Shown here: in pieces, positions 4,456-41,417 of the stretch
How the letters are laid out: each line of letters starts with the position of its first letter
Position numbering within the stretch: the first letter of the stretch is position 1
NCBI GenBank assembly: GCA_025351455.1
Contig: JANXVW010000005.1
Span: 1 to 41,417, forward strand
Reading direction: 5' to 3'
DNA from: Betaproteobacteria bacterium
GTDB taxonomy: Bacteria; Pseudomonadota; Gammaproteobacteria; Burkholderiales; JACQAP01
Length of the DNA: 41,417 bases
Notes under the pieces: generated by a model
Database searches by the model: none
What the model was told of the DNA's origin: nothing
What the model saw: only the letters and a program-made list of their open reading frames with translations
Translations under genes and position numbers: made by a program

Positions 4456-6579
4456 TTAGCGGACGCTAAGGGTATCTTTGATGACTCTCGGCGTAACGAA
4501 GATCAGCAGTTCGCGCTTGTCATTGCGCTTCAAATCCTGGCGGAAGAAAAATCCCAGCAGGGGAATGTCCCCGAGCAGCGGCACCTTGGTCAAAGTAGAA
4601 GATTCTTCCTGCGTGTAGATGCCGCCAAGGCCCACCGTGCCGCCGTTCTCCACCAGTACTTCCGTCGATACCTGCTTGGTGTCGATGGCAGGACCGGCGC
4701 TGGTGTTTGCACCGACGCTGTCCTTGTTCACGTTCAACTTCATCATGATGTTGTCGTCCGGCGTGATCTGCGGCTTGACCTTGAGGCTCAGGGTCGCCTT
4801 GCGGAACGATACGCTCGTCGCACCACTGCTCGTCGCCTGCTGGTAGGGGATTTCCGTACCTTGTTCGATGATGGCTTCAACGTTGTCCGCGGTGATCACG
4901 CGCGGACTCGATATGATCTTGCCCTTGCCGTCCGCCTGCAACGCAGTGATTTCCAGGTTCAGGAACTTTGTCATCGCATCGTTCATGAGGATCAGGGAGA
5001 GTTGCCCCGGAATCACGCCGCCGAGACCTGGAGCCGCCATGTTGACGAATGTTGAATCGGCAAGAAAATTTGGAGTATCGGTGGTTTGCCCGCTGTGAGC
5101 ACCCGTATCGATCAGCCCGCCGCCGATCAGCGCCCTGCGGTTGCCTCCGGGAATCTGGTCGCCGCGGCCCGACGTGTCGTGATAACCCAGCCTTGCGCCG
5201 ACGTTGCGGCTAAAGGTGTCAGTCGCTTCGACTATCCGCGCTTCGATCAATACCTGGCGTGTAGCGCGATCAGTCTTCTTGAGCAGTTCGCGGACTTCGT
5301 CGAGCTTGCTGGGCGTGTCCTGGACGAAAATCTGATTGGTTCTGGTATCGACGACAGCGCTGCCGCGTTTGGACAGAATTCTCTGGGTGGCGTCAGTAAT
5401 GACTTTCTGGAAATCCTCTGCCTTCTGATAGTTCATCTGGAAGCTTTCCGTGCGCAGCGGTTCCAGTTCGGAAATCTGCGCACGTGCTTCCAGGGCCAGT
5501 TTCTCCTTCGTGGCCAGTTCGTCACGCGGGGCAATCCAGACCACATTGCCGGTCTTGCGCATATCCAGGCCTTTGGCTTGCAGAATGATGTCTAACGCCT
5601 GGTCCCATGGAACGTCCTTCAGACGCAGCGTCAGGTTGCCGGTCACCGTGTCGCTGGTGATGATGTTCAGGCTCGTGAAATCCGCGATGACCTGCAATAC
5701 GGCGCGCACCTCGATATTCTGGAAGTTCAGGGACAGTTTCTCACCGGTATAGCCGCTCTGAGCCTTCGGTTTGCCCGATTCATCGACCACCGGCTTCACT
5801 TCAATGATGAATCGGCTGTCCGTCTGATAGGCCGATTGTTCCCAACGCCCTTTCGGCGTAATCGTGATTCGCGTATTCGCGCCGGAACGGGTCACTTCGA
5901 AATTGTCGACCTGGGTGCCGAAGTCGGTGACGTCGTAACGCCGCTCCAGGGCGGGCGGCAAGGCAGTCTGGATGAAATCCACCAGAACGCTCTTGCCCTG
6001 CTGGCGCAAATCGATGCCTGTCGTCGCGTCCGACAGGTCGACGATGATCTGTGCTTCGCCGTTCCGGCCGCGACGGAAATCAACGTCGCGTACCGCGTGG
6101 CCTTCCGCAGCGGCCTTGGGTTCTGCAAAAGCAGTGGACGTGTCGGGGGTCGTCGCTGCCGCCGCGCCCCCTTCCAAAGTGATGACTACTGCGTTTCCAT
6201 CGATCTTGGTGTCGTACTTCACCATCTTGGTGAGGTTGAGTACCACCCGGGTCCGGCCACCCGATTGGCCCAGCCTGATCGTGCGCAAATCACCCTGGTT
6301 TACGTCCTGCGAATTTTTTCCGAGACCATTCGTGGTGCTGGGAAAATCGAACGCAACTCGCGGCGGGTTGTTGACGGTAAATGCCGCCGGGGGGTTGGTC
6401 GGCGTATCCTTGAACCCGAGCTTGACCGTTACGGTACCCGCTTGCGTTGAAACGTCTATCGACTGAATGACGTTGCCGGCGGGAGGCGCGGCTTTATCCT
6501 GGCCCTGTGCAACCGTGCTCACCAGGAACACCATTCCCAGCGAGGCTGCGAGTTTAATCAAACGACCGATGCGTTTCAT
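4456..6579 (-). CDS. pilQ: Type IV pilus secretin PilQ
   Basis: 707 residues. Outer-membrane secretin through which the type IV pilus emerges. A signal peptide occupies about residues 1-27 (hydrophobic LAASLGMVFLVSTVAQG). Two AMIN-type peptidoglycan-binding domains cover about 35-250. An STN/N0 domain follows around 285-345 (LSLNFQNIEVRAVLQVIADF), then an N1/NolW repeat, then the C-terminal secretin barrel ending with VPLLGDIPLLGFFFR and ELLIFVTPRVI. It is the last gene of pilMNOPQ, 19 bp after pilP, and is followed by an intrinsic terminator. Length and domain order are normal for betaproteobacterial PilQ. Confidence 0.97.
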   Translation of the reverse strand: MKRIGRLIKLAASLGMVFLVSTVAQGQDKAAPPAGNVIQSIDVSTQAGTVTVKLGFKDTPTNPPAAFTVNNPPRVAFDFPSTTNGLGKNSQDVNQGDLRTIRLGQSGGRTRVVLNLTKMVKYDTKIDGNAVVITLEGGAAAATTPDTSTAFAEPKAAAEGHAVRDVDFRRGRNGEAQIIVDLSDATTGIDLRQQGKSVLVDFIQTALPPALERRYDVTDFGTQVDNFEVTRSGANTRITITPKGRWEQSAYQTDSRFIIEVKPVVDESGKPKAQSGYTGEKLSLNFQNIEVRAVLQVIADFTSLNIITSDTVTGNLTLRLKDVPWDQALDIILQAKGLDMRKTGNVVWIAPRDELATKEKLALEARAQISELEPLRTESFQMNYQKAEDFQKVITDATQRILSKRGSAVVDTRTNQIFVQDTPSKLDEVRELLKKTDRATRQVLIEARIVEATDTFSRNVGARLGYHDTSGRGDQIPGGNRRALIGGGLIDTGAHSGQTTDTPNFLADSTFVNMAAPGLGGVIPGQLSLILMNDAMTKFLNLEITALQADGKGKIISSPRVITADNVEAIIEQGTEIPYQQATSSGATSVSFRKATLSLKVKPQITPDDNIMMKLNVNKDSVGANTSAGPAIDTKQVSTEVLVENGGTVGLGGIYTQEESSTLTKVPLLGDIPLLGFFFRQDLKRNDKRELLIFVTPRVIKDTLSVR

Positions 6580-6598
6580 ATTCGCGTGCTCCTTGAGT

Positions 6599-7120
6599 TC
6601 ATTGCTCGAGCAGCTGCAAACTGCTTGTGCGCTCGGTCCAGGATCCCGATGAAGAATCCTGGATGACTTCCTTGAGTGTCACCGTCGATTCGCTGATTGA
6701 GGTCACGACACCGAAATTTTGGCCAAGATAGTTGCCGGACTTGACGCGATACAGGTTGTTGTCCGGCGTCTTGATCAGCGCGAAGCGAATCTGCTTCTGT
6801 TCCAGGGTGCCGACCATTTGGAGACTTTCGAGCGGAAAGGCTTCCAGCGCTTCCTTGCGCCGGTTCAGGTCGGGGCGCGGACCACCGCCCGTCCCACCAC
6901 GCGAGTCTGCAACGGTCTTGCGCGGCTTGAAGGGATCCGACAAATCAAAGGCGTTGTAAGCAAAAGGTTCGAACTGCCTGACCTCGGGGATCGGTTCCAC
7001 CCGACCGCGCAGTCCCTCACCCGACTCCTTGACGAACGTCTTCAGGTCGGAAAACTGTTCGCCCCCGCAACCGAAGAGGAACAGGACCGCGACCACCATG
7101 GCTGAAAGGGCGCGCATCAT
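6599..7120 (-). CDS. pilP: Type IV pilus assembly lipoprotein PilP
   Basis: 173 residues. Inner-membrane lipoprotein that binds the PilN/PilO pair and the periplasmic part of PilQ. The short signal peptide ends in the lipobox LFGC with acylated Cys18. After a disordered linker rich in Pro, Gly and Arg (about 60-90), a beta-domain covers about 95-165 (LESLQMVGTLEQKQIRFALI, then VKSGNYLGQNFG). The ATG overlaps the pilO stop by 4 bp (ATGA), showing coupling. A second Met directly follows the first, so the start could be one codon later. Confidence 0.95.
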   Translation of the reverse strand: MMRALSAMVVAVLFLFGCGGEQFSDLKTFVKESGEGLRGRVEPIPEVRQFEPFAYNAFDLSDPFKPRKTVADSRGGTGGGPRPDLNRRKEALEAFPLESLQMVGTLEQKQIRFALIKTPDNNLYRVKSGNYLGQNFGVVTSISESTVTLKEVIQDSSSGSWTERTSSLQLLEQ

Positions 7121-7749
7121 TTCTTCTTGGGAGCGGCGGCGTCACGGGCAGCCTTGCGCTGAGCCGCAACTTCGCTGTCATCCAGGTAACGAAATGTTTT
7201 GGCGACGGCATCCAGGGTCAGGCCGGTCTTGCTCGTGCTGAGCGCAATATCGTTCAGCGTGACGATGCGGGATAGCTGGGAAATGTCGCTCGCAAAGGCA
7301 CCAATGTCATGGTAATTACCGGCGAGCTTGATTGTTATCGGCAGTTCCGCATAGAACTCCGAGCGGGTTTCGGCTGGCGCCGGGCGGAACAGTTCGAACT
7401 GCAGGCCGCGTCCGAGACCTGCCTGGTTGATGTCCGTAAGCAAAGCTTCCATCTCCGACTTGTTTGGCAACTGCTTCAACATTTCACCGAAGGATTCCTC
7501 GATCTCCGCCAATTGCTTGCGATAGGCCTCGAGGTTTACGGCCTGCTTTTTCTTGTCCAGAAAGGAAGTCCGCAGCTCCTGTTCCTTGTCGCGGTCCCTC
7601 GCCAGTTCGTCAAGCTGGTTCTGCCAATCGAACCAATAGCCGGCGAACACCAGCACAAGAAGCAGGATAAACAGGGCACCGAGCTTCGGTAGGGCCGGCC
7701 AGCTGCCGATATCGCGTGGATTCAGTCTTCGGAGGTCTTCGAGCGTCAT
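7117..7749 (-). CDS. pilO: Type IV pilus inner-membrane protein PilO
   Basis: 210 residues. Bitopic inner-membrane protein that dimerises with PilN and links the cytoplasmic motor to PilP/PilQ. One membrane segment lies at about residues 24-44 (GALFILLLVLVFAGYWF). A periplasmic coiled coil follows (about 48-105, rich in Glu, Lys and Gln), then a ferredoxin-like domain ending near FRYLDD. The C terminus is Lys/Ala-rich. It starts 5 bp after pilN and overlaps pilP by 4 bp. No anomaly seen. Confidence 0.95.
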   Translation of the reverse strand: MTLEDLRRLNPRDIGSWPALPKLGALFILLLVLVFAGYWFDWQNQLDELARDRDKEQELRTSFLDKKKQAVNLEAYRKQLAEIEESFGEMLKQLPNKSEMEALLTDINQAGLGRGLQFELFRPAPAETRSEFYAELPITIKLAGNYHDIGAFASDISQLSRIVTLNDIALSTSKTGLTLDAVAKTFRYLDDSEVAAQRKAARDAAAPKKK

Positions 7750-32957: not shown

Positions 32958-34328
32958 ATGAGCGTCAGCCGTTACTCCCCGCAGGAAATCGTCGAAACCA
33001 TCCGCATGGTGCAAATGGAGAACCTCGACATTCGCACCATCACCATGGGCATCAGCCTGCGTGACTGCAGTCATCCCGATCTTGCGGTTGCGGCGACGAA
33101 GGCCTACGACAAGATCTGCCGGCTCGCCGAGAACCTGGTGCGCACCGGCGACGAAATTGCCTCCGAGTACGGCATTCCCGTGATCAACAAACGCATTTCC
33201 GTGACCCCGATCGCACTGGTCGCGGAGAGCTCGGCCGCGGACTCATATGTGCTGATGGCCGAACTCCTGGACCGAGCGGCGAAACAGGTCGGGGTCAATT
33301 TCCTCGGCGGCTTTTCCGCGCTGGTGCAAAAAGGCATGACGCGCGGCGATGCGACCTTGATTGCCTCGATTCCGCAGGCACTCGCCGTTACCGAGCGCGT
33401 CTGCGCGTCGGTCAACATCGGCACGACCAAGGCCGGCATCAACATGGACGCGGTGGCGTTGATGGGTCGCACCATCATCGAGACCGCGCGCCTGACGTCT
33501 GCGCAGGATGGCCTGGGCTGCGCCAAGCTCGTCGTGTTTTGCAATGCGGTGGAAGACAATCCTTTCATGGCAGGGGCCTTCCATGGCATCGGCGAACCGG
33601 AATGCGTGATCAACGTCGGTGTGTCAGGTCCCGGCGCGGTGTTGCGGGCCATCGAGAAAGACGGCCAGACTGATTTCGGCACGCTGGCCGCCACGATCAA
33701 GCGTACGGCATTCAAGATCACCCGCATGGGTGAACTGGTGGGCAGGGCGGCATCGGAGAAACTCAGCGTTCCCTTCGGGATTGTCGACCTGTCGCTGGCG
33801 CCGACGCCGGCGCTGGGCGATTCGGTGGCGCGGATCCTCGAAGCCATGGGAATCGAGCGCGTGGGCACGCATGGATCGACTGCTGCGCTGGCATTGTTGA
33901 ACGACGCAGTGAAGAAAGGCGGCGCGATGGCGTCGAGTTACGTCGGCGGACTGTCCGGTGCGTTCATTCCGGTTTCCGAAGACATCGGCATGATCGAAGC
34001 GGCAGGCATGGGCGCCCTGACTTTCGACAAACTCGAAGCCCTGACCTGTGTGTGTTCGGTCGGCCTGGATATGATCGCCATTCCCGGCGATACGCCGGCG
34101 GAGACGATTGCGGCGATCATTGCCGACGAAGCGGCCATCGGCATGATCAACCGCAAGACCACCGCCGTGCGCCTCATTCCCGTCCCCGGGAAAAAAGTCG
34201 GCGACATGGTGGAATTCGGCGGCTTGCTGGGGCGCGCCCCGGTCATGGCCGTGCATCGCGAATCAAGTGCGGGCTTCATCAACCGCGGCGGACGCATTCC
34301 CGCGCCGCTGCAGGCACTCAACAACTAA
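32958..34328 (+). CDS. UPF0210 / DUF711 (PFL-like) family protein
   Basis: 456 residues, the family's usual length (about 450). The start is the ATG at 32958. The pattern [17 protein letters not shown] near the N terminus, [17 protein letters not shown]-like [27 protein letters not shown], and [13 protein letters not shown] at the end are typical of UPF0210. No signal peptide or membrane segment is seen. Some members are labelled PFL-like in databases, but the glycyl-radical motif RVAGY of pyruvate formate lyase is not seen. It is paired with the ACT-domain gene 13 bp upstream. Function is not known. Confidence 0.9.
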
Positions 34329-34337
34329 AGCGCGGCT

Positions 34338-35686
34338 TCACCTGCGTAGCACACACTTGTCATACAGGTCGTGCATGCGGTTTTGCGGATCATAGCGGGA
34401 CTTCAGTTCCCGGTAGGCCGGCGCGCCGTACAACGCGTCGAATTCCTGTCTTGAATAATAGCTGTCAGAGTACAGCGATTTGATGCCGCCGAGTTCCGCG
34501 ACCTTGCGCTCGATCAGCCGGTTGAAATGGCCGGGCAACTGCGACTTCTTGGACTTGACGACATCCCAGAAACCGAAGTTCACGTAGGTCATCGACGGAT
34601 TCATCGGATAAAGCGGAAACATTCGCGCATCCGGACTACGGATCGGGCAGATCCATACCGGTAGGATGCCGATCTCGCGCTGGAAGAAGTCCAGGAATTC
34701 GGCGGCGCGGGTGATCGGAATATCGACGTCCTGGATGACCGACTCGCGTTGCACGCCGGACAATTTGTCGAAGCGTTGCGTGAATTTCCAGCGGCTGTTC
34801 CAGCGCATTATCGCGGTGTAAGTACGCGAGTTCAGTCGCGCTTTGCCGGCGAGCCTGCGGATCAGCGGATTCTGCACGCCGAAATTCTTCGAGCACCAGA
34901 ACCAGTCGGTATCCCAGCGCCACAGAAAATCGTGCGCGCTGAGATAGTCCGTCGCCTTCTCGCGGATGGATCGGTAGTAGATATGCTCGAAGGTGTAGTC
35001 GCTGACGAACGGGGCTTCATCGACGAATGTCCCGGCGGTCAGATAGTATTCGTCCGGGCCGAACACACGCCGTCGACGAAATCCGCGGCGGAATCGCAAA
35101 GAACCTGCAGGCCGCGAAAGCAGGCGGACGAATCCTGGAAGTGCGCGTGCTCGAGGCGCACGAATTTTTTCACCGGGATCGTCATGGTGCGCACTCGCAA
35201 CGCATAGCCGAGCGTGCCGTAGGAATTCGCGAAGCCGAAGAACAGGTCCTGGTGTTCGTTATGCGGCGTGCACAGATAGACCTTGCCGTCGCCGGCCAGG
35301 ATGTCCATTTCGAGCACCCCGTGGTGAACCAGCCCATGGCGGAAGGAAGTCGCCTCTAGGCCCACGCCCGCCACCGCGCCGCCGAGCGTGATGGTTTTCA
35401 GTTGCGGCACCACCGCCGGCATCGCACCGCAGGCCAGCGTGGCCAACACCAGGTTCGCGTAAGGCGTCATGCCCTCCGCATCCGCCCATCCGGCGCGCGG
35501 ATCGACCTCGAGAACATGATTAAAGTCGCGCACGTCGAGCCGCGGCTTGCTGGTGCGGTCGCGATCACGGAACAGATTGGAACTCTTTTTTTTCAGCGCC
35601 ACCGGTCCCGTGGCGGCGAGCAGTTGCTGCGCCAGTCTTTCGCGGCGCGCCGCATAAGTATTGGTCGGCGCAATCGAAGCCGTCAT
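34338..35686 (-). pseudogene. FAD-linked oxidoreductase, TmsA/DHCR24-like, broken by a frameshift
   Basis: One gene read in two frames: residues 1-207 (35686 to about 35066) and the C-terminal 240 or so (about 35067 to 34338). The N-terminal part has a PCMH-type FAD-binding domain with VVPQLKTITLGGAVAGVGLE (about 93-112) and FRHGLVHHGVLEMD. It runs to DFVDGV and then hits a stop 14 codons after the shift. The other frame continues with FGPDEYYLTAG up to YDPQNRMHDLYDKCVLRR. Total length is 1349 bp, one base short of a whole codon number, so restoring one base (for example GTGTGTTC to GTGGTGTTC near 35063-35068) gives about 449 residues. The ATG overlaps the stop of the methyltransferase gene (TGATG). 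It could be a true mutation, a sequencing error, or programmed slippage. Likely original role: reducing a methylene intermediate in a branched fatty acid. Confidence 0.8.
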
Positions 35687-36906
35687 CAGCGACGCTCGTA
35701 GAGAAAGCCGCGGCTCATCGGATAGTTGTCCCTGGTGATGTTGCCTTTGCTGAAAACGATCTGGAACAGGTGCGTCCTGCCGGCTGGGGACCGGAACATT
35801 TCGGCGCAGGAAATCAGGTAAGTGCGCCAGACACGGCGGAACTTCTCATTAAACCGCACGGGGTCGAGCGCACGGATGTTCTCCCAGTTGCGGTCGAAAC
35901 GCTCTGCCCAGGCATCCAGTGTCGGCGCGTAGTGGCGGCGCAGATTCTCGATGTCCACGACCTCCAGTCCGCAGCGTTCCATTTCCGTGATGGTCTGCGC
36001 AAGGCTCGGGATCCACCCGCCGGGAAACACGTGCTTGCGGATGTAGAATTCTGTATCGCGCACGCCGACGTGGCCGATGAAATGCAGCATGCCGAGGCCG
36101 CCCGGCTTGAGGAAATCGGCGTGCGCCTTGACGACCTGCGCGAGCTGGTCGCGCCCGGCATGCTCGAGCACGCCGATGGAGACCACCTTGTCGTATTGCC
36201 TGTCGACTTCGCGGAAATCCGCCAGCCTGACTTGCATCGCGTCCTGCAGGCCGCGTTTGCGGATTTCCTCCTCGACTGCGGTAACCTGTTCCGGCGTCGT
36301 GTTCAGGCCATGTGGAAGCGCGCCATAATGTTCGTGCGCGTGGAACATGAACCCGCCGAAGCCGCAGCCGATGTCGATGACGGTTTCGCCGCGGGCCAGC
36401 TTGATCTTACGGCAGACGTGGTCGACCTTGTTGATCTCGGCTTCATCGACACTCACCGTGCCTTCCTTCCAGTAACCGCAGGTGTACATCATCAGCGGCT
36501 TGTCGAGCCAGTAACGGTAGAATTCGGTGCCGATGGCGTAGTGAAAGCGGGCGTTGGCCCTGGCTTGCGCGATGCTGGCATTGGAGAAACGCCACTCATG
36601 CCAGCGGTTGCGGATGGCCACCAGCGCATTCGGATTGCGTTCGAATCCGCTTTCGAAGGCGGCCCGGAACGCTGCTGCAAGATCGCCATCGACATCGACT
36701 TCCCCGTCGAAGCAGGCCTCCATGAGCCCGATGTGCCCGAACAACAGGATGCGTGCATACGCGCGCGGATGCCGGATGACGATGGTGAATATCGGCGTGC
36801 CTTGCCGGTTCTGGTAGTGCGTTCCGTCTGCAAACTGCACGCGGAAACAAGTCTCGACGCCCTGACCGAGCGCCGACATCCTGTCTCGAACTATTCCGGT
36901 GAACAT
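35686..36906 (-). CDS. CFA-synthase-family SAM-dependent fatty-acid methyltransferase (TmsB/UfaA1-like)
   Basis: 406 residues from the ATG at 36904-36906 (MFTGIVRDRM); a start at 36954 is possible but would run into livF. Transfers a methyl from SAM to the double bond of a phospholipid acyl chain. SAM motif I is VIDIGCGFGG (176-185). All residues that hold the active-site bicarbonate in E. coli CFA synthase have counterparts: Cys143, Glu249, His275, Ile277 and Tyr326. It could make cyclopropane rings, but the directly coupled FAD oxidoreductase gene suggests the TmsB/BfaB role of making a methylene that is then reduced to a 10-methyl branch. It starts 44 bp after livF, same strand, possibly by read-through. 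Confidence 0.88.
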   Translation of the reverse strand: MFTGIVRDRMSALGQGVETCFRVQFADGTHYQNRQGTPIFTIVIRHPRAYARILLFGHIGLMEACFDGEVDVDGDLAAAFRAAFESGFERNPNALVAIRNRWHEWRFSNASIAQARANARFHYAIGTEFYRYWLDKPLMMYTCGYWKEGTVSVDEAEINKVDHVCRKIKLARGETVIDIGCGFGGFMFHAHEHYGALPHGLNTTPEQVTAVEEEIRKRGLQDAMQVRLADFREVDRQYDKVVSIGVLEHAGRDQLAQVVKAHADFLKPGGLGMLHFIGHVGVRDTEFYIRKHVFPGGWIPSLAQTITEMERCGLEVVDIENLRRHYAPTLDAWAERFDRNWENIRALDPVRFNEKFRRVWRTYLISCAEMFRSPAGRTHLFQIVFSKGNITRDNYPMSRGFLYERR

Positions 36907-36950
36907 TTCCGACCTCGCTGTCGCAAAACGAAAGCAGGTAATTGCGGCGT

Positions 36951-37661
36951 TCACTCGCCCAGGTAGGCTTTCCTGACGAGCGGATTTTCGAGCAGGCTGC
37001 GTGCGCCATCGGCGAGCGTGATCAGGCCGCTTTCCATCACGTAGCCACGATGGCTGGCCTCCAGCGCCAGCTTCGCATTCTGTTCGACCAGTAATACGGT
37101 GACGCCTTCTTCCGACACCATGCGCACCGTGTCGAAAATCTTCTCGACCATGAGCGGTGCCAGACCCATGCTCGGTTCGTCGAGCAGCAGCAGCCTGGGC
37201 CGGCTCATCAGGGCGCGGCCGATCGCGAGCATCTGCTGTTCGCCTCCGGACAGGGTACCACCAGTCTGGTTGCGCCTTTCAGCGAGCCGCGGAAACAATC
37301 CGTAAATACGGTCCAGGTCGATTCGGATCTCGGCCTTGTCGTTGCGCACGTAGGCGCCCATCTGCAGATTTTCCCGCACCGTCAGCCGGCCGAACACTCC
37401 GCGGCCTTCCGGGACCAGCGCCAGTCCGTGTTGGACCAGTTTGTAAGCGGGAAAACCGCTCACGTCCTCGCCGCGCAAGCGCACGGTGCCGCCATGATGC
37501 AATAACCCGCAGATCGCCTTCAAGGTAGTGGTCTTGCCGGCACCATTGGCGCCGATCAGCGCCACCATTTCGCCTTCGCCGACGGTGAAGTCAATTCCCT
37601 TGACGGCGTTGATCCCGCCATACGCGACTTTCAACGCCTTGACCTCGAGCAGCACGGTCAC
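36951..37661 (-). CDS. livF: Branched-chain amino acid ABC transporter, ATP-binding protein LivF
   Basis: 236 residues from the GTG at 37659-37661, which overlaps the livG stop by 4 bp; the longer open frame upstream lies inside livG. One of the two ATPases of the high-affinity Leu/Ile/Val importer. Walker A GANGAGKT is at 38-45, the signature LSGGEQQ follows around 140, then Walker B LLLLDEP and the H-loop region, here VEQNAKLALE, with the Gln-Asn typical of LivF. It is the last liv gene before the fatty-acid methyltransferase. Substrate range in this family also includes amides and urea, so exact cargo is open. Confidence 0.95.
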   Translation of the reverse strand: MTVLLEVKALKVAYGGINAVKGIDFTVGEGEMVALIGANGAGKTTTLKAICGLLHHGGTVRLRGEDVSGFPAYKLVQHGLALVPEGRGVFGRLTVRENLQMGAYVRNDKAEIRIDLDRIYGLFPRLAERRNQTGGTLSGGEQQMLAIGRALMSRPRLLLLDEPSMGLAPLMVEKIFDTVRMVSEEGVTVLLVEQNAKLALEASHRGYVMESGLITLADGARSLLENPLVRKAYLGE

Positions 37662-38431
37662 GGCAATGCTCCGCCAAGATAGGCGCGAATAACCTCCGGA
37701 TCCTTCTGCACCTGCGCGGGCTTGCCTTCCGCGATTTTCCTGCCATAGTCGAGCACCGCGACACGATCGCAAAGGCCCATGACCAGCTTCACGTCATGCT
37801 CGATCAGCAGGATGGTCACGCCGTCGCTACGAATTTTCTCCAGCAGCCGGCGCAACTCCGCCGTTTCCGTTGCGTTCATGCCGGCGGCGGGCTCATCGAG
37901 CGCCAGCAATTTCGGTTCCGTAGCCAGTGCGCGCGCGATCTCAAGCCGGCGCTGGTCGCCGTAGGACAAATTGCGGGATAGCGCGCCGGCATGCTGGCTG
38001 ATGCCGACGTAGGCTAGCAATTCCCGGGAACGGCTGCGGATGGCCGCTTCCTCGTCCCTGGTGCGGCGCGTGCGCAGGATTGCGCCGATCGCTCCGGCAC
38101 GCGTGCGCACATGCCGGCCGACCATCACGTTCTCCATGGCGGACATATTGCCGAACAGGCGGATGTTCTGAAAAGTCCGCGCGATCCCGGACTCGGCCAC
38201 GCGGTAAGGCTTGAGCCCGACCAGGTTCGCGCCATCGAATTCGAACTCGCCGCGATCGGGCACGTAGAGCCCGGTGAGCACGTTGAACAATGTGGTCTTG
38301 CCCGCGCCGTTCGGTCCGATCAGGCCGTAGATTTCTCCTTGCCTGATAGTCAACGACACATCGGCGAGTGCCGTCAGTCCACCGAAGCGCTTTTCGATAT
38401 TACGGATCTCGAGCAGTTGCGCCGTACGCAT
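37658..38431 (-). CDS. livG: Branched-chain amino acid ABC transporter, ATP-binding protein LivG
   Basis: 257 residues from the ATG at 38429-38431, which overlaps the livM stop by one base (TGATG). The open frame extends far upstream inside livM, but that is shadow. Walker A GPNGAGKT is at 39-46. The LivG-specific insert follows (GIARTFQNIRLFGNMSAMEN). The signature is LSYGDQRR, Walker B LLALDEP, and the H-loop LLIEHD. The C-terminal AYLGG extension is typical of LivG. Confidence 0.95.
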   Translation of the reverse strand: MRTAQLLEIRNIEKRFGGLTALADVSLTIRQGEIYGLIGPNGAGKTTLFNVLTGLYVPDRGEFEFDGANLVGLKPYRVAESGIARTFQNIRLFGNMSAMENVMVGRHVRTRAGAIGAILRTRRTRDEEAAIRSRSRELLAYVGISQHAGALSRNLSYGDQRRLEIARALATEPKLLALDEPAAGMNATETAELRRLLEKIRSDGVTILLIEHDVKLVMGLCDRVAVLDYGRKIAEGKPAQVQKDPEVIRAYLGGALP

Positions 38432-39522
38432 CAGCTCTGGTCCGTCTCCGAGAGCTCGCGCTTGCGCCGACTGGACGGCCACAGGCCCGCCGGGCGATAG
38501 AGCATCATGAGCACCAGCGCCAGTCCGAACAGGAGCATGCGGATGACTTCCGGTTCGATCAACAGGCGGCCGAACACCGCCTTCTGCGCCGGCTCCACGG
38601 TGTAGCGCAGGATCTCCGGCACGAAGGACAGCAGAATCGCACCGAGCACGACACCCCATACGTTGCCCATGCCGCCGAGCACGACCATGGACAGCACCAT
38701 GATCGACTCGACGAAGACGAAACTCTCCGGACTGATGAAGCCTTGCGTCGCCGCGAAAATTCCGCCGGCCACGCCACCGAAGCTGGCCCCCATCGCGAAT
38801 GCCAGAAGTTTCACGTTGCGCGTGTTGATCCCCATCGCCTGCGCGGCGACTTCGTCTTCGCGGATCGCAACCCAGGCGCGGCCCAGGCGCGAGTTCTGCT
38901 GGCGCAGATTGATGACGATGGCGACAACCAGCACGGCCAGCAGCAAGTAGTAGTATTTGATCGGCCCGCTGAAGGCGAGGCCGAACAGATCATCGGTGCG
39001 GCTGAAATCGATTTTCCCGATCCGGAACGGATCGATCAGCGTGACGCCCTGCGGGCCGTTGGTGATGTTGACTGGCTGGGAAAGGTTGTTCAGGAATACG
39101 CGCACGATCTCACCGAACCCGAGCGTGACGATCGCCAGGTAATCGCCGCGCAATTTGAGCGTCGGCGCGCCGAGCAGCACCCCGAACACGCAGGCAACCG
39201 CGGCGCCGATGGGCAAGATGATCCAGAACGGCAGATGCAGCCCGAAATGGGGCGACGCAAGCAGCGCGTAGCAATACGCCCCGACCGCATAGAACGCGAT
39301 ATAGCCCAGGTCGAGCAGGCCGGCGAAACCGACGACGATGTTCAATCCGAGCGAGAGCAGCGCGAACAGGATGGCCAGGTTGGTGATGCGCACCCACGCC
39401 GTACCCACGGATGCGAGCACGAATGGCAGGATGAAAAGGGTCAGGACGATGAGCGCAACGCCGAGCCACGGCGCTGCCTGGTGGGTTCGCAGTTGTTCCA
39501 GACGTGCAATCCAGCCGGTCAT
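38431..39522 (-). CDS. livM: Branched-chain amino acid ABC transporter, permease LivM
   Basis: 363 residues. Inner-membrane permease with about nine to ten hydrophobic segments; the first are at about 20-38, 44-62 and 70-90. The family signature GLNIVVGFAGLLDLGYIAFYAVGAY (about 59-83) and the cytoplasmic coupling loop around AIREDEVAAQAMGINTRNVKLLAF are clear. It starts 3 bp after livH and overlaps livG by one base. The charged C terminus RRKRELSETDQS faces the cytoplasm. Confidence 0.95.
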   Translation of the reverse strand: MTGWIARLEQLRTHQAAPWLGVALIVLTLFILPFVLASVGTAWVRITNLAILFALLSLGLNIVVGFAGLLDLGYIAFYAVGAYCYALLASPHFGLHLPFWIILPIGAAVACVFGVLLGAPTLKLRGDYLAIVTLGFGEIVRVFLNNLSQPVNITNGPQGVTLIDPFRIGKIDFSRTDDLFGLAFSGPIKYYYLLLAVLVVAIVINLRQQNSRLGRAWVAIREDEVAAQAMGINTRNVKLLAFAMGASFGGVAGGIFAATQGFISPESFVFVESIMVLSMVVLGGMGNVWGVVLGAILLSFVPEILRYTVEPAQKAVFGRLLIEPEVIRMLLFGLALVLMMLYRPAGLWPSSRRKRELSETDQS

Positions 39523-39525
39523 GCG

Positions 39526-40512
39526 TCAGGCGCGATCCGAAACGCGTTCGCCCAGCAAACCCGACGGCCGGAATACCAGCACGGCGATCAGGACCAGGAA
39601 GGCGATCACGTCCTGATAGTTGCTGCCGAACAATACGAAGTGACCGTCCTGCGCGCAACGCACGGCGAGCGCATCGGAAATTCCCGATATGTGGCACAAG
39701 TCCATGATCTCGCCGATGTAACCCGCACCGAGCGCCTCGACCACACCGAGCATAATCCCGCCCAGCATCGCGCCGGCAAGGTTGCCGATGCCGCCGAGCA
39801 CGGCGGCGGAAAACGCCTTCATGCCGAGCAGCGAGCCCATGGTGTAGTGCGCAATGCCGTAGTACGTCCCGACCATGACGCCGGCGACCGCGCCGAGGCC
39901 GGCGCCGATGACAAAAGTAGCCGAGATCACGCGGTTGACGTTGATGCCCATCAGGCCGGCGATCTGCGGATTCTCCGATGTTGCGCGCATGGCGATGCCC
40001 AGGCGGGTGCGAAACACCAGCAAGGTCAGGCCGGCCATCATCAGCAAGGATCCCAGGATGATGACAATCTGCACCGCACTGATGTGCGCGCCGGCAATCT
40101 CAAAAACCGGATTGTCGATGATCTGGGGAAAGCCCAGCGGATTGCGGCTCCAGACGATCATCGCGACCTGCTGCAGGATGATCGAGATGCCGATCGCGGT
40201 AATCAGGGGGGCGAGCCGCGGCGCGCCGCGCAACGGCCTGTAGGCGACGCGCTCCATGACGAAGCCCACCGCCATGCACACCGGCACGGCGCAGAGTATG
40301 CCGGCGAAGACGATGACCAGTGGCGGCAGCACCGAACCGGCAAGCGCGGAGATCACCGACAACGCAACCATGGCGCCCACCATGACGACTTCGCCGTGCG
40401 CGAAATTGATCAATTGCACGATCCCGTAAACCATCGTGTAGCCCAGCGCCACGATGGCATACACGCTGCCCAGGGTCAGGCCGTTGATGAGTTGCTGCAG
40501 GAAGATTTCCAA
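39526..40512 (-). CDS. livH: Branched-chain amino acid ABC transporter, permease LivH
   Basis: 328 residues, about 20-30 more than many LivH. The start is TTG at 40510-40512, giving (M)EIFLQQLINGLTLGSVYAIV, the family N terminus; no ATG is in frame nearby and no strong Shine-Dalgarno is seen. About eight membrane segments. The coupling loop reads GIAMRATSENPQIAGLMGINVNRVI. The segment GYIGEIMDLCHISGISDALAVRCAQDGHFVLFGSNYQ (in pieces, about 268-305) is a hydrophilic insert before the last helix that explains the extra length. Upstream is livK after a 129-bp gap with a hairpin. Confidence 0.93.
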   Translation of the reverse strand: MEIFLQQLINGLTLGSVYAIVALGYTMVYGIVQLINFAHGEVVMVGAMVALSVISALAGSVLPPLVIVFAGILCAVPVCMAVGFVMERVAYRPLRGAPRLAPLITAIGISIILQQVAMIVWSRNPLGFPQIIDNPVFEIAGAHISAVQIVIILGSLLMMAGLTLLVFRTRLGIAMRATSENPQIAGLMGINVNRVISATFVIGAGLGAVAGVMVGTYYGIAHYTMGSLLGMKAFSAAVLGGIGNLAGAMLGGIMLGVVEALGAGYIGEIMDLCHISGISDALAVRCAQDGHFVLFGSNYQDVIAFLVLIAVLVFRPSGLLGERVSDRA

Positions 40513-40592
40513 GGGGGTCAGCCGGTCATGCAGATGCTAGCAAGTTCCCTGCGGTCGGCCCGGCGTGGAGGCGTCGCGCGTCAACCACCAAA

Positions 40593-40620
40593 GAAAACAG
40601 CACCCGCAGGTGCCGTTTTC
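40593..40620 (-). terminator. Terminator or attenuating hairpin between livK and livH
   Basis: Inverted repeat 40593-40604 with 40609-40620: 12 positions pair with one mismatch or wobble (40599/40614) around a 4-nt loop. On the minus strand the stem ends in GTTTTC, so its T run is part of the stem. It sits 21 bp after the livK stop and before livH. In liv operons such a hairpin often lowers downstream expression relative to the binding protein; that role here is inferred. Confidence 0.6.
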
Positions 40621-40641
40621 AAGTTTCGGCTGCCGCACCGC

Positions 40642-41417
40642 TTACTTCGCAGTTCCGCCTTTGACGAAGTCCTCGAACTTGACCGACTTGCCGCCCTTGA
40701 TGATCGCGACCGGCGTGATGACGCCATTCTTCATGGTGAAAATGGTCATTTCCGCATCCTTGCGGTCGCCCTTCGCGTCGAACTCGATGTGGCCGCTCGC
40801 GCCTTCGAATTTGATCTTGGCGAGCTCCGGCAGGTATTTTGCCGGATCGGCGGAATTGGCTGCCTGCATCGCGGCGATCAACAAATTGGTGCCGTCGTAG
40901 GTGAAAGGCGCGTAGATCAGCGGATCGGAATTGAATTTCTTCTTGAATGCATCCAGGAACGCCTTACTCGCCGCTTGCACCGGAATGCCCGCCTGCGAGC
41001 AAACCAAGCCTTCGGATGCGGGGCCGGCCAGTTCTTTCATCTTCTCGGTGCAAGCGCCGTCGCCGAACGAGAACACGCCCTTCAGGCCGAGTTCGCGCCC
41101 CTGCTTGAGCAAGGGGCCGGCGCCGGAATCCATGCCGCCATAAAAAATCGCATCCGGACCCTTGCCCTTGAGCTTGGTCAGGATGGCTTTCCAGTCGCGC
41201 GTTTCCTGCGTGCCTTTTTCGCGAGGCAGCACAGTGATGCCAGCAGCCTTCAACGTCTTCTCGACCTCGTTGGCGAGCCCTTCGCCGTAAGCCGTGGCGT
41301 CGTCGATCACGGCGACGGACTTGGGCTTGTGTTCGGCAACAAGATAGCTGGCGATCGCCGGGCCCTGCTGGTCGTCGCGGCCTACCGTGCGGAACGCGAC
41401 CTTGAAGCCTTGCTCGG
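40642..41417 (-). CDS. livK: Branched-chain amino acid ABC transporter, periplasmic binding protein LivK (partial)
   Basis: C-terminal 258 residues or so; the gene continues past the right edge, so the signal peptide is not seen. Type I periplasmic binding protein of the Leu/Ile/Val family: SVAVIDDATAYGEGLANEVEK, DAIFYGGMDSGAGPLLKQGRELG, YAPFTYDGTNLLIAAMQ and a typical end, KGGKSVKFEDFVKG. An internal GTG at 41310 lies in the middle of the fold and is not a start. It heads livKHMGF. The exact ligand cannot be read here. Confidence 0.93.
   Translation of the reverse strand, partial: EQGFKVAFRTVGRDDQQGPAIASYLVAEHKPKSVAVIDDATAYGEGLANEVEKTLKAAGITVLPREKGTQETRDWKAILTKLKGKGPDAIFYGGMDSGAGPLLKQGRELGLKGVFSFGDGACTEKMKELAGPASEGLVCSQAGIPVQAASKAFLDAFKKKFNSDPLIYAPFTYDGTNLLIAAMQAANSADPAKYLPELAKIKFEGASGHIEFDAKGDRKDAEMTIFTMKNGVITPVAIIKGGKSVKFEDFVKGGTAK

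Follow-up and report, generated by a model that had tools for sequence, protein, structure and literature searches.

In soils, 10-methyl fatty acids serve as markers for actinobacteria and sulfate reducers. Two gene pairs, bfaAB (tmsAB) of actinobacteria and tmpBA, are the closest described systems, and the passages of PMC7791843 on their function report that BfaB makes a methylene intermediate that BfaA reduces, that TmpB makes 10-methylenepalmitate in Escherichia coli, and that TmpB is active in both E. coli and yeast, with TmpA inactive in both. The same text states that bfa and tmp differ in gene order, although its cloning passage reads as bfaB first. In E. coli K-12, cfa has unrelated genes on either side, whereas in the betaproteobacterial locus described here a methyltransferase of the same family is paired with a flavoprotein. 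This pair appears to be a third, hybrid design, a TmpB-side methyltransferase joined to a BfaA-type reductase, because the reductase is sister to BfaA-like proteins, the methyltransferase is sister to tmpBA-like proteins, and the genes follow the tmp order.

Layout of the locus

The following features, all on the minus strand, were located in the window (the whole 41,417-nucleotide stretch of DNA that was analysed):

36951..41417, minus strand: five liv-type branched-chain amino-acid ABC transporter genes, upstream of the pair (names from reading ORF translations)
35686..36906, minus strand: SAM methyltransferase of the Cfa family (406 aa, start ATG at 36906); PF02353 (CMAS), E = 1.4e-69
35684..35688, minus strand: TGATG stop/start overlap of methyltransferase and flavoprotein (direct reading)
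34338-35686, minus strand: FAD_binding_4 flavoprotein, whole gene, directly downstream of the methyltransferase; FAD_binding_4, E = 9.9e-11
35039..35686, minus strand: 5' part of the putative BfaA-type flavoprotein, a 215-aa ORF homologous to about residue 207, with FAD_binding_4; 82% identity with L010, the congener copy that is intact
35060..35072, minus strand: frameshift in the flavoprotein; the intact copy of the congener has one base more
34338..35099, minus strand: 3' part of the putative BfaA-type flavoprotein, 253 aa, out of frame with the 5' part; homology runs from about 35066 through to the stop; 83% identical to L010

A first-pass annotation of this DNA had proposed a CFA-synthase-family methyltransferase coupled by a TGATG overlap to an FAD-binding oxidoreductase. 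The domain match bears out the first element and the overlap, read at 35688-35684, the second; the partner is of the FAD_binding_4 family and lies directly downstream as described, but it is split between two frames, as ORFs that overlap each other (35039-35686 and 34338-35099). For the methyltransferase, an alternative GTG start at 36954 would overlap livF, and the ATG at 36906 is preferred because most of the 53 close relatives match only from residue 16 or later of the long form. The liv-type genes occur in the same order at two further loci of the genus (L110 and L091), and their co-transcription with the pair is possible. No promoter-like site was found within 34200-37100, a result of little weight given that shuffled sequences lead one to expect only 0.8.

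A Cfa-family partner next door, in genes tightly packed or overlapping, is shared with bfaAB. The order is not: the reductase comes first in five actinobacterial-type loci and the methyltransferase comes first here, as in tmpBA.

Affiliations of the two proteins

Full-length relatives stood in for the flavoprotein in the comparison with the BfaA family because the window copy is split. Identity to four actinobacterial BfaA-like proteins was 46-52% over 91-100% of the query, and in a tree of 51 rows, rooted on two divergent rows (L092 and L093), 45 betaproteobacterial rows (99/96) were sister to four actinobacterial-type rows (100/98). The actinobacterial comparison loci were drawn from plasmid and viral records only; against 72,556 plasmid records, the congener flavoprotein gave eight matches at 1e-5 (two Variovorax, four actinobacterial and two weak). 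In the Tsukamurella locus, an SRPBCC gene (a family that we take to cover the 'polyketide cyclase' of the published bfaAB layout) stands head to head with an FAD oxidoreductase gene, which is followed by the methyltransferase. The published layout, as given in the portion of PMC5660069 describing it, corresponds to this arrangement, and the flavoprotein also precedes the methyltransferase in Prescottella, Nocardia, Nonomuraea and a contig filed as viral (L157). With labels assigned by neighbourhood and family, the flavoprotein is taken as a member of the BfaA (TmsA) family. A recent transfer from actinobacteria is not supported, because the betaproteobacterial and actinobacterial reductases are reciprocally monophyletic in the tree as rooted on the two divergent rows.

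Two of the actinobacterial-type loci deserve separate mention. A small Prescottella plasmid (L073; NZ_CP130944.1, 980-6676) carries the actinobacterial pair twice, in inverted orientation; both flavoprotein copies lie in more than one frame, and the locus was left out of the flavoprotein tree because of these breaks. The IMG/VR contig filed as viral (L157, 3902-6384) ends in a bfaA-bfaB-like pair whose methyltransferase is 63% identical to that of Nonomuraea, and the stretch is possibly host flank.

The methyltransferase belongs to another branch of its family than BfaB. In a first tree (76 of 78 rows kept; hits shorter than 230 aa and the fragments L061 and L140-2 left out), 24 betaproteobacterial rows were united (100/100) to the exclusion of four BfaB-like rows and stood next to a row (L133) in which the gene is followed by a geranylgeranyl-reductase-like flavoprotein, the tmpBA layout. 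At 1e-30, 38 of 369 genomes of the class had a flavoprotein of that type, and in 26 the match was below 1e-80; the source genome gave no match at 1e-30. A Cfa-family gene lay directly upstream of the TmpA-like gene in 19 of 20 loci, with one of the 19 truncated at the edge of its contig. For a second tree, 26 of the 78 rows were dropped (redundant, fragmentary or long-branched) and 16 added, which gave 68 in total; the additions were one actinobacterial row and 15 tmpBA-like rows out of 19 full ones; here 14 betaproteobacterial rows and the 15 tmpBA-like rows, assigned to TmpB by neighbourhood and family, formed a clade (97/94) in which the former were sister to, not inside, the latter. The five BfaB-like rows fell elsewhere, and E. 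coli Cfa lay in a separate clade. The window methyltransferase is 29-34% identical to the tmpBA-like rows, 26-28% to the BfaB-like rows and 29% to E. coli Cfa.

Assignment of the methyltransferase to BfaB (TmsB) was rejected when that grouping was forced (AU test, p = 0.0037 in the 76-row tree and 0.0031 in the 68-row tree; the betaproteobacterial clade stands on a long stem (1.03), and long branches can distort such a test). The analogy to TmsA/TmsB put forward in the first-pass annotation therefore holds for the flavoprotein and fails for the methyltransferase, and the pair, rather than TmsAB as such, would be new as a hybrid of two known systems. From tmpBA it departs in its reductase, an FAD_binding_4 protein unrelated to the geranylgeranyl-reductase-like TmpA (TIGR02032). 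The methyltransferase did not group within classical Cfa, nor the oxidoreductase with sugar or lactate oxidases, the placements that the same annotation had set against its own proposal.

With E. coli Cfa, the methyltransferase shares the PF02353 domain and the residues of the bicarbonate site, which we take to be those known from work on the E. coli enzyme: Cys143, Glu248, His275, Ile277 and Tyr326, numbered from the ATG at 36906 (the glutamate had earlier been placed at 249; the other four positions stand). The site was considered and rejected as a marker of the product; because the 68-row alignment shows it in almost every row, that of E. coli Cfa included, it is no evidence for a branched product.

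Pairing and co-occurrence

One scan of genome contigs returned 58 methyltransferase relatives, 53 of them at least 53% identical to the window protein. In 52 of these 53 the flavoprotein follows downstream on the same strand (at a distance of 1.2 kb in L024), and the record of the single exception ends 11 bases past the methyltransferase; beside the five remote relatives (30-34% identical), no flavoprotein was seen. Named carriers of the pair among the relatives are Variovorax and Zeimonas arvi, and two of the 53 (L013 and L036) come from records named gammaproteobacterial. The pair also occurs on CAMDRJ010000152.1 (L044), a record titled as a Klebsiella pneumoniae MAG that groups with a betaproteobacterial MAG from Lake Baikal (100/100) and is probably a mislabelled bin.

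The order was sampled with 399 genomes, of which 24 gave a flavoprotein hit (E of 1e-60 or better) and 22 a methyltransferase hit (E of 1e-90 or better), all 22 falling within the 24. In 21 of these 24 the genes are neighbours, including one genome with a 1.3-kb gap (G169) and one with only a divergent flavoprotein (G067); in the two flavoprotein-only genomes (G003 and G082), no methyltransferase was present within the stretch taken around the flavoprotein. This pairing is far above chance, and the search for adjacent pairs in betaproteobacteria, which had been suggested along with the initial reading, recovered them in both surveys. In a sample of 398 genomes from the phylum, the flavoprotein was found in two, the source genome and another of the same order. 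The literature covered, which was partial, yielded nothing on bfaA-type genes in betaproteobacteria.

Apart from the pair and opposite-strand shadow ORFs, no gene cluster recurred in more than 10 of 74 stretches (some loci being taken twice), and the liv-type genes were the only neighbours named; the other recurrent ones may include a lipid gene. Because the neighbours vary, the two genes alone appear to constitute the unit. We lean towards regarding the pair as a third way of placing methyl branches mid-chain in membrane lipids, assembled independently of the other two and scattered through the betaproteobacteria, in which a TmpA-type reductase was exchanged for a BfaA-type one or the latter was separately acquired. 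A separate observation comes from a Variovorax boronicumulans plasmid (L184; NZ_CP138497.1, 5947-9792), where the methyltransferase has no flavoprotein match and is followed, in the annotation, by a copper P-type ATPase gene on the opposite strand.

Break in the flavoprotein and proposed chemistry

A DNA alignment with the copy of a congener (G001, L010), which is one open frame of 450 residues, shows the window flavoprotein to be one base short near 35066. The first-pass annotation made no mention of a frameshift, although its wording that the genome 'carries, or recently carried' the pathway leaves room for one. Relative to the congener, dN/dS is 0.121 for the methyltransferase and, for the flavoprotein, 0.123 before the break and 0.123 after it, and neither flavoprotein piece contains an internal stop. 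Because the congener has an unbroken copy and constraint is as strong before the break as after it, the frameshift appears to be either a recent event or an assembly error, and a one-base error is plausible because the source assembly is a draft of 353 contigs (98.78% complete, 3.41% contamination).

Elsewhere in the genus, both genes are intact in G001; both are open in G002, yet at the starts of two different contigs; and in G003 (L091) an intact flavoprotein stands beside a methyltransferase reduced to its two ends (about 5845-6141), which still share one frame around the missing core. Across 76 relative loci checked for integrity, both genes are unbroken in 62, six are cut by contig ends or contain undetermined bases (L012, L015, L037, L038, L050 and L057), in seven one of the genes is broken, lost or interrupted by a stop (L013, L026, L059, L060, L061, L091 and L092), and one lacks the methyltransferase (L099). 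The break in L092 may be an alignment effect, as another check gave it as stop-free. It is a real possibility, though one we rate at somewhat less than even, that a module functional in relatives is dead or half-dead in this genome. A genuine frameshift would then cost the second step and leave methylene chains, or yield nothing, as the split frame, the missing base, the decayed methyltransferase of G003 and the breaks or stops in L013, L026, L059, L060 and L061 would suggest; the even constraint across the break, equal to that on the methyltransferase, the stop-free pieces and the fragmented draft argue the other way.

For the intact pair, the best explanation, and in our judgement a likely one, is that it forms methyl-branched fatty acids. 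We infer both reactions, the substrate and the product: the methyltransferase would leave a methylene group (C=CH2), the FAD enzyme would then reduce it to a methyl branch by analogy with BfaA, and the predicted products are saturated, mid-chain methyl-branched phospholipid acyl chains derived from 16:1 or 18:1. Because a TmpB-side enzyme is joined to a reductase family that is active in E. coli, the pair predicts an enzyme set that completes the methyl branch in aerobic hosts, and a betaproteobacterial source, if true, would blur the use of 10-methyl acids as soil markers. Against this explanation stand the BfaA and TmpB labels, which derive from neighbourhood and family, the long branch (1.03) and low identity to the tmpBA-like rows, the unpartnered methyltransferase of the V. 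boronicumulans plasmid and the broken frame in the window.

Published lipid profiles bear on the product at some distance, as the literature covered held no lipid record of any pair carrier. In a Variovorax report on species not known to carry the pair, 16:0, 16:1 and 17:0 cyclo are given as major acids, and its main text contains no word beginning with 'methyl', which counts against the methyl-branched reading (PMC12396923). 'Summed feature 9', which cannot separate 10-methyl-16:0 from iso-17:1, is given as 1.4% in the account of Caenimonas soli (PMC9628874) and, of the five Duganella strains in PMC12401772, two have it as a trace; a Paraburkholderia match, in the portion of PMC8859910 concerned, referred to methylenetetrahydrofolate only.

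The 17:0 cyclo of Variovorax would also suit a different chemistry, in which cyclopropane rings are the product of the methyltransferase and the flavoprotein has some other target in the membrane. We consider this unlikely: curated models do name the enzyme a cyclopropane synthase, but below their cut-off (best 250.8 bits versus 400), and it clades with tmpBA-like enzymes rather than with E. coli Cfa, co-occurs with a BfaA-type enzyme and shares its genome with two further strong CMAS genes (L001 and L002) that could make rings. Other Cfa-family genes were seen in the source genome and at a related locus: contig 81 of the source genome (L156, 1488-5284) carries one in a cluster of amine oxidoreductase, DUF1365, CMAS and chalcone-isomerase-like genes, and in L042 (3210-5665) a second one lies directly upstream of the pair; it falls on the BfaB side in the tree and shares 36% identity with that of the window.

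The predicted model of a relative's flavoprotein (L014, pLDDT 85.7) has the fold of the DprE1/cytokinin dehydrogenase group (Z about 26-29; solved-structure and fold searches), and no sterol-reductase chain was named among the matches listed. That the flavoprotein instead oxidises, desaturating a methylated chain toward furan-type acids by a UfaM/UfaD-like logic (Halomonas UfaM makes 11-methyloctadec-12-enoate in E. coli, according to the relevant part of PMC12089945), is very unlikely in our view, for although the structural neighbours among the matches listed are oxidases or dehydrogenases (cytokinin dehydrogenase, DprE1 and galactonolactone dehydrogenase), the nearest relatives by sequence are BfaA-like proteins and a shared fold, as modelled, would give no reaction direction.

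Divergent flavoproteins (38-39% identical) occur at two loci, in one between the methyltransferase and the usual flavoprotein (L092, G148, 4511-7249) and in the other as its sole replacement (L093, G067, 4458-5765). Because the same methyltransferase clade also pairs with the divergent form in L093, the reductase slot looks exchangeable, and methyltransferase and reductase are suggested to be separable evolutionary parts.
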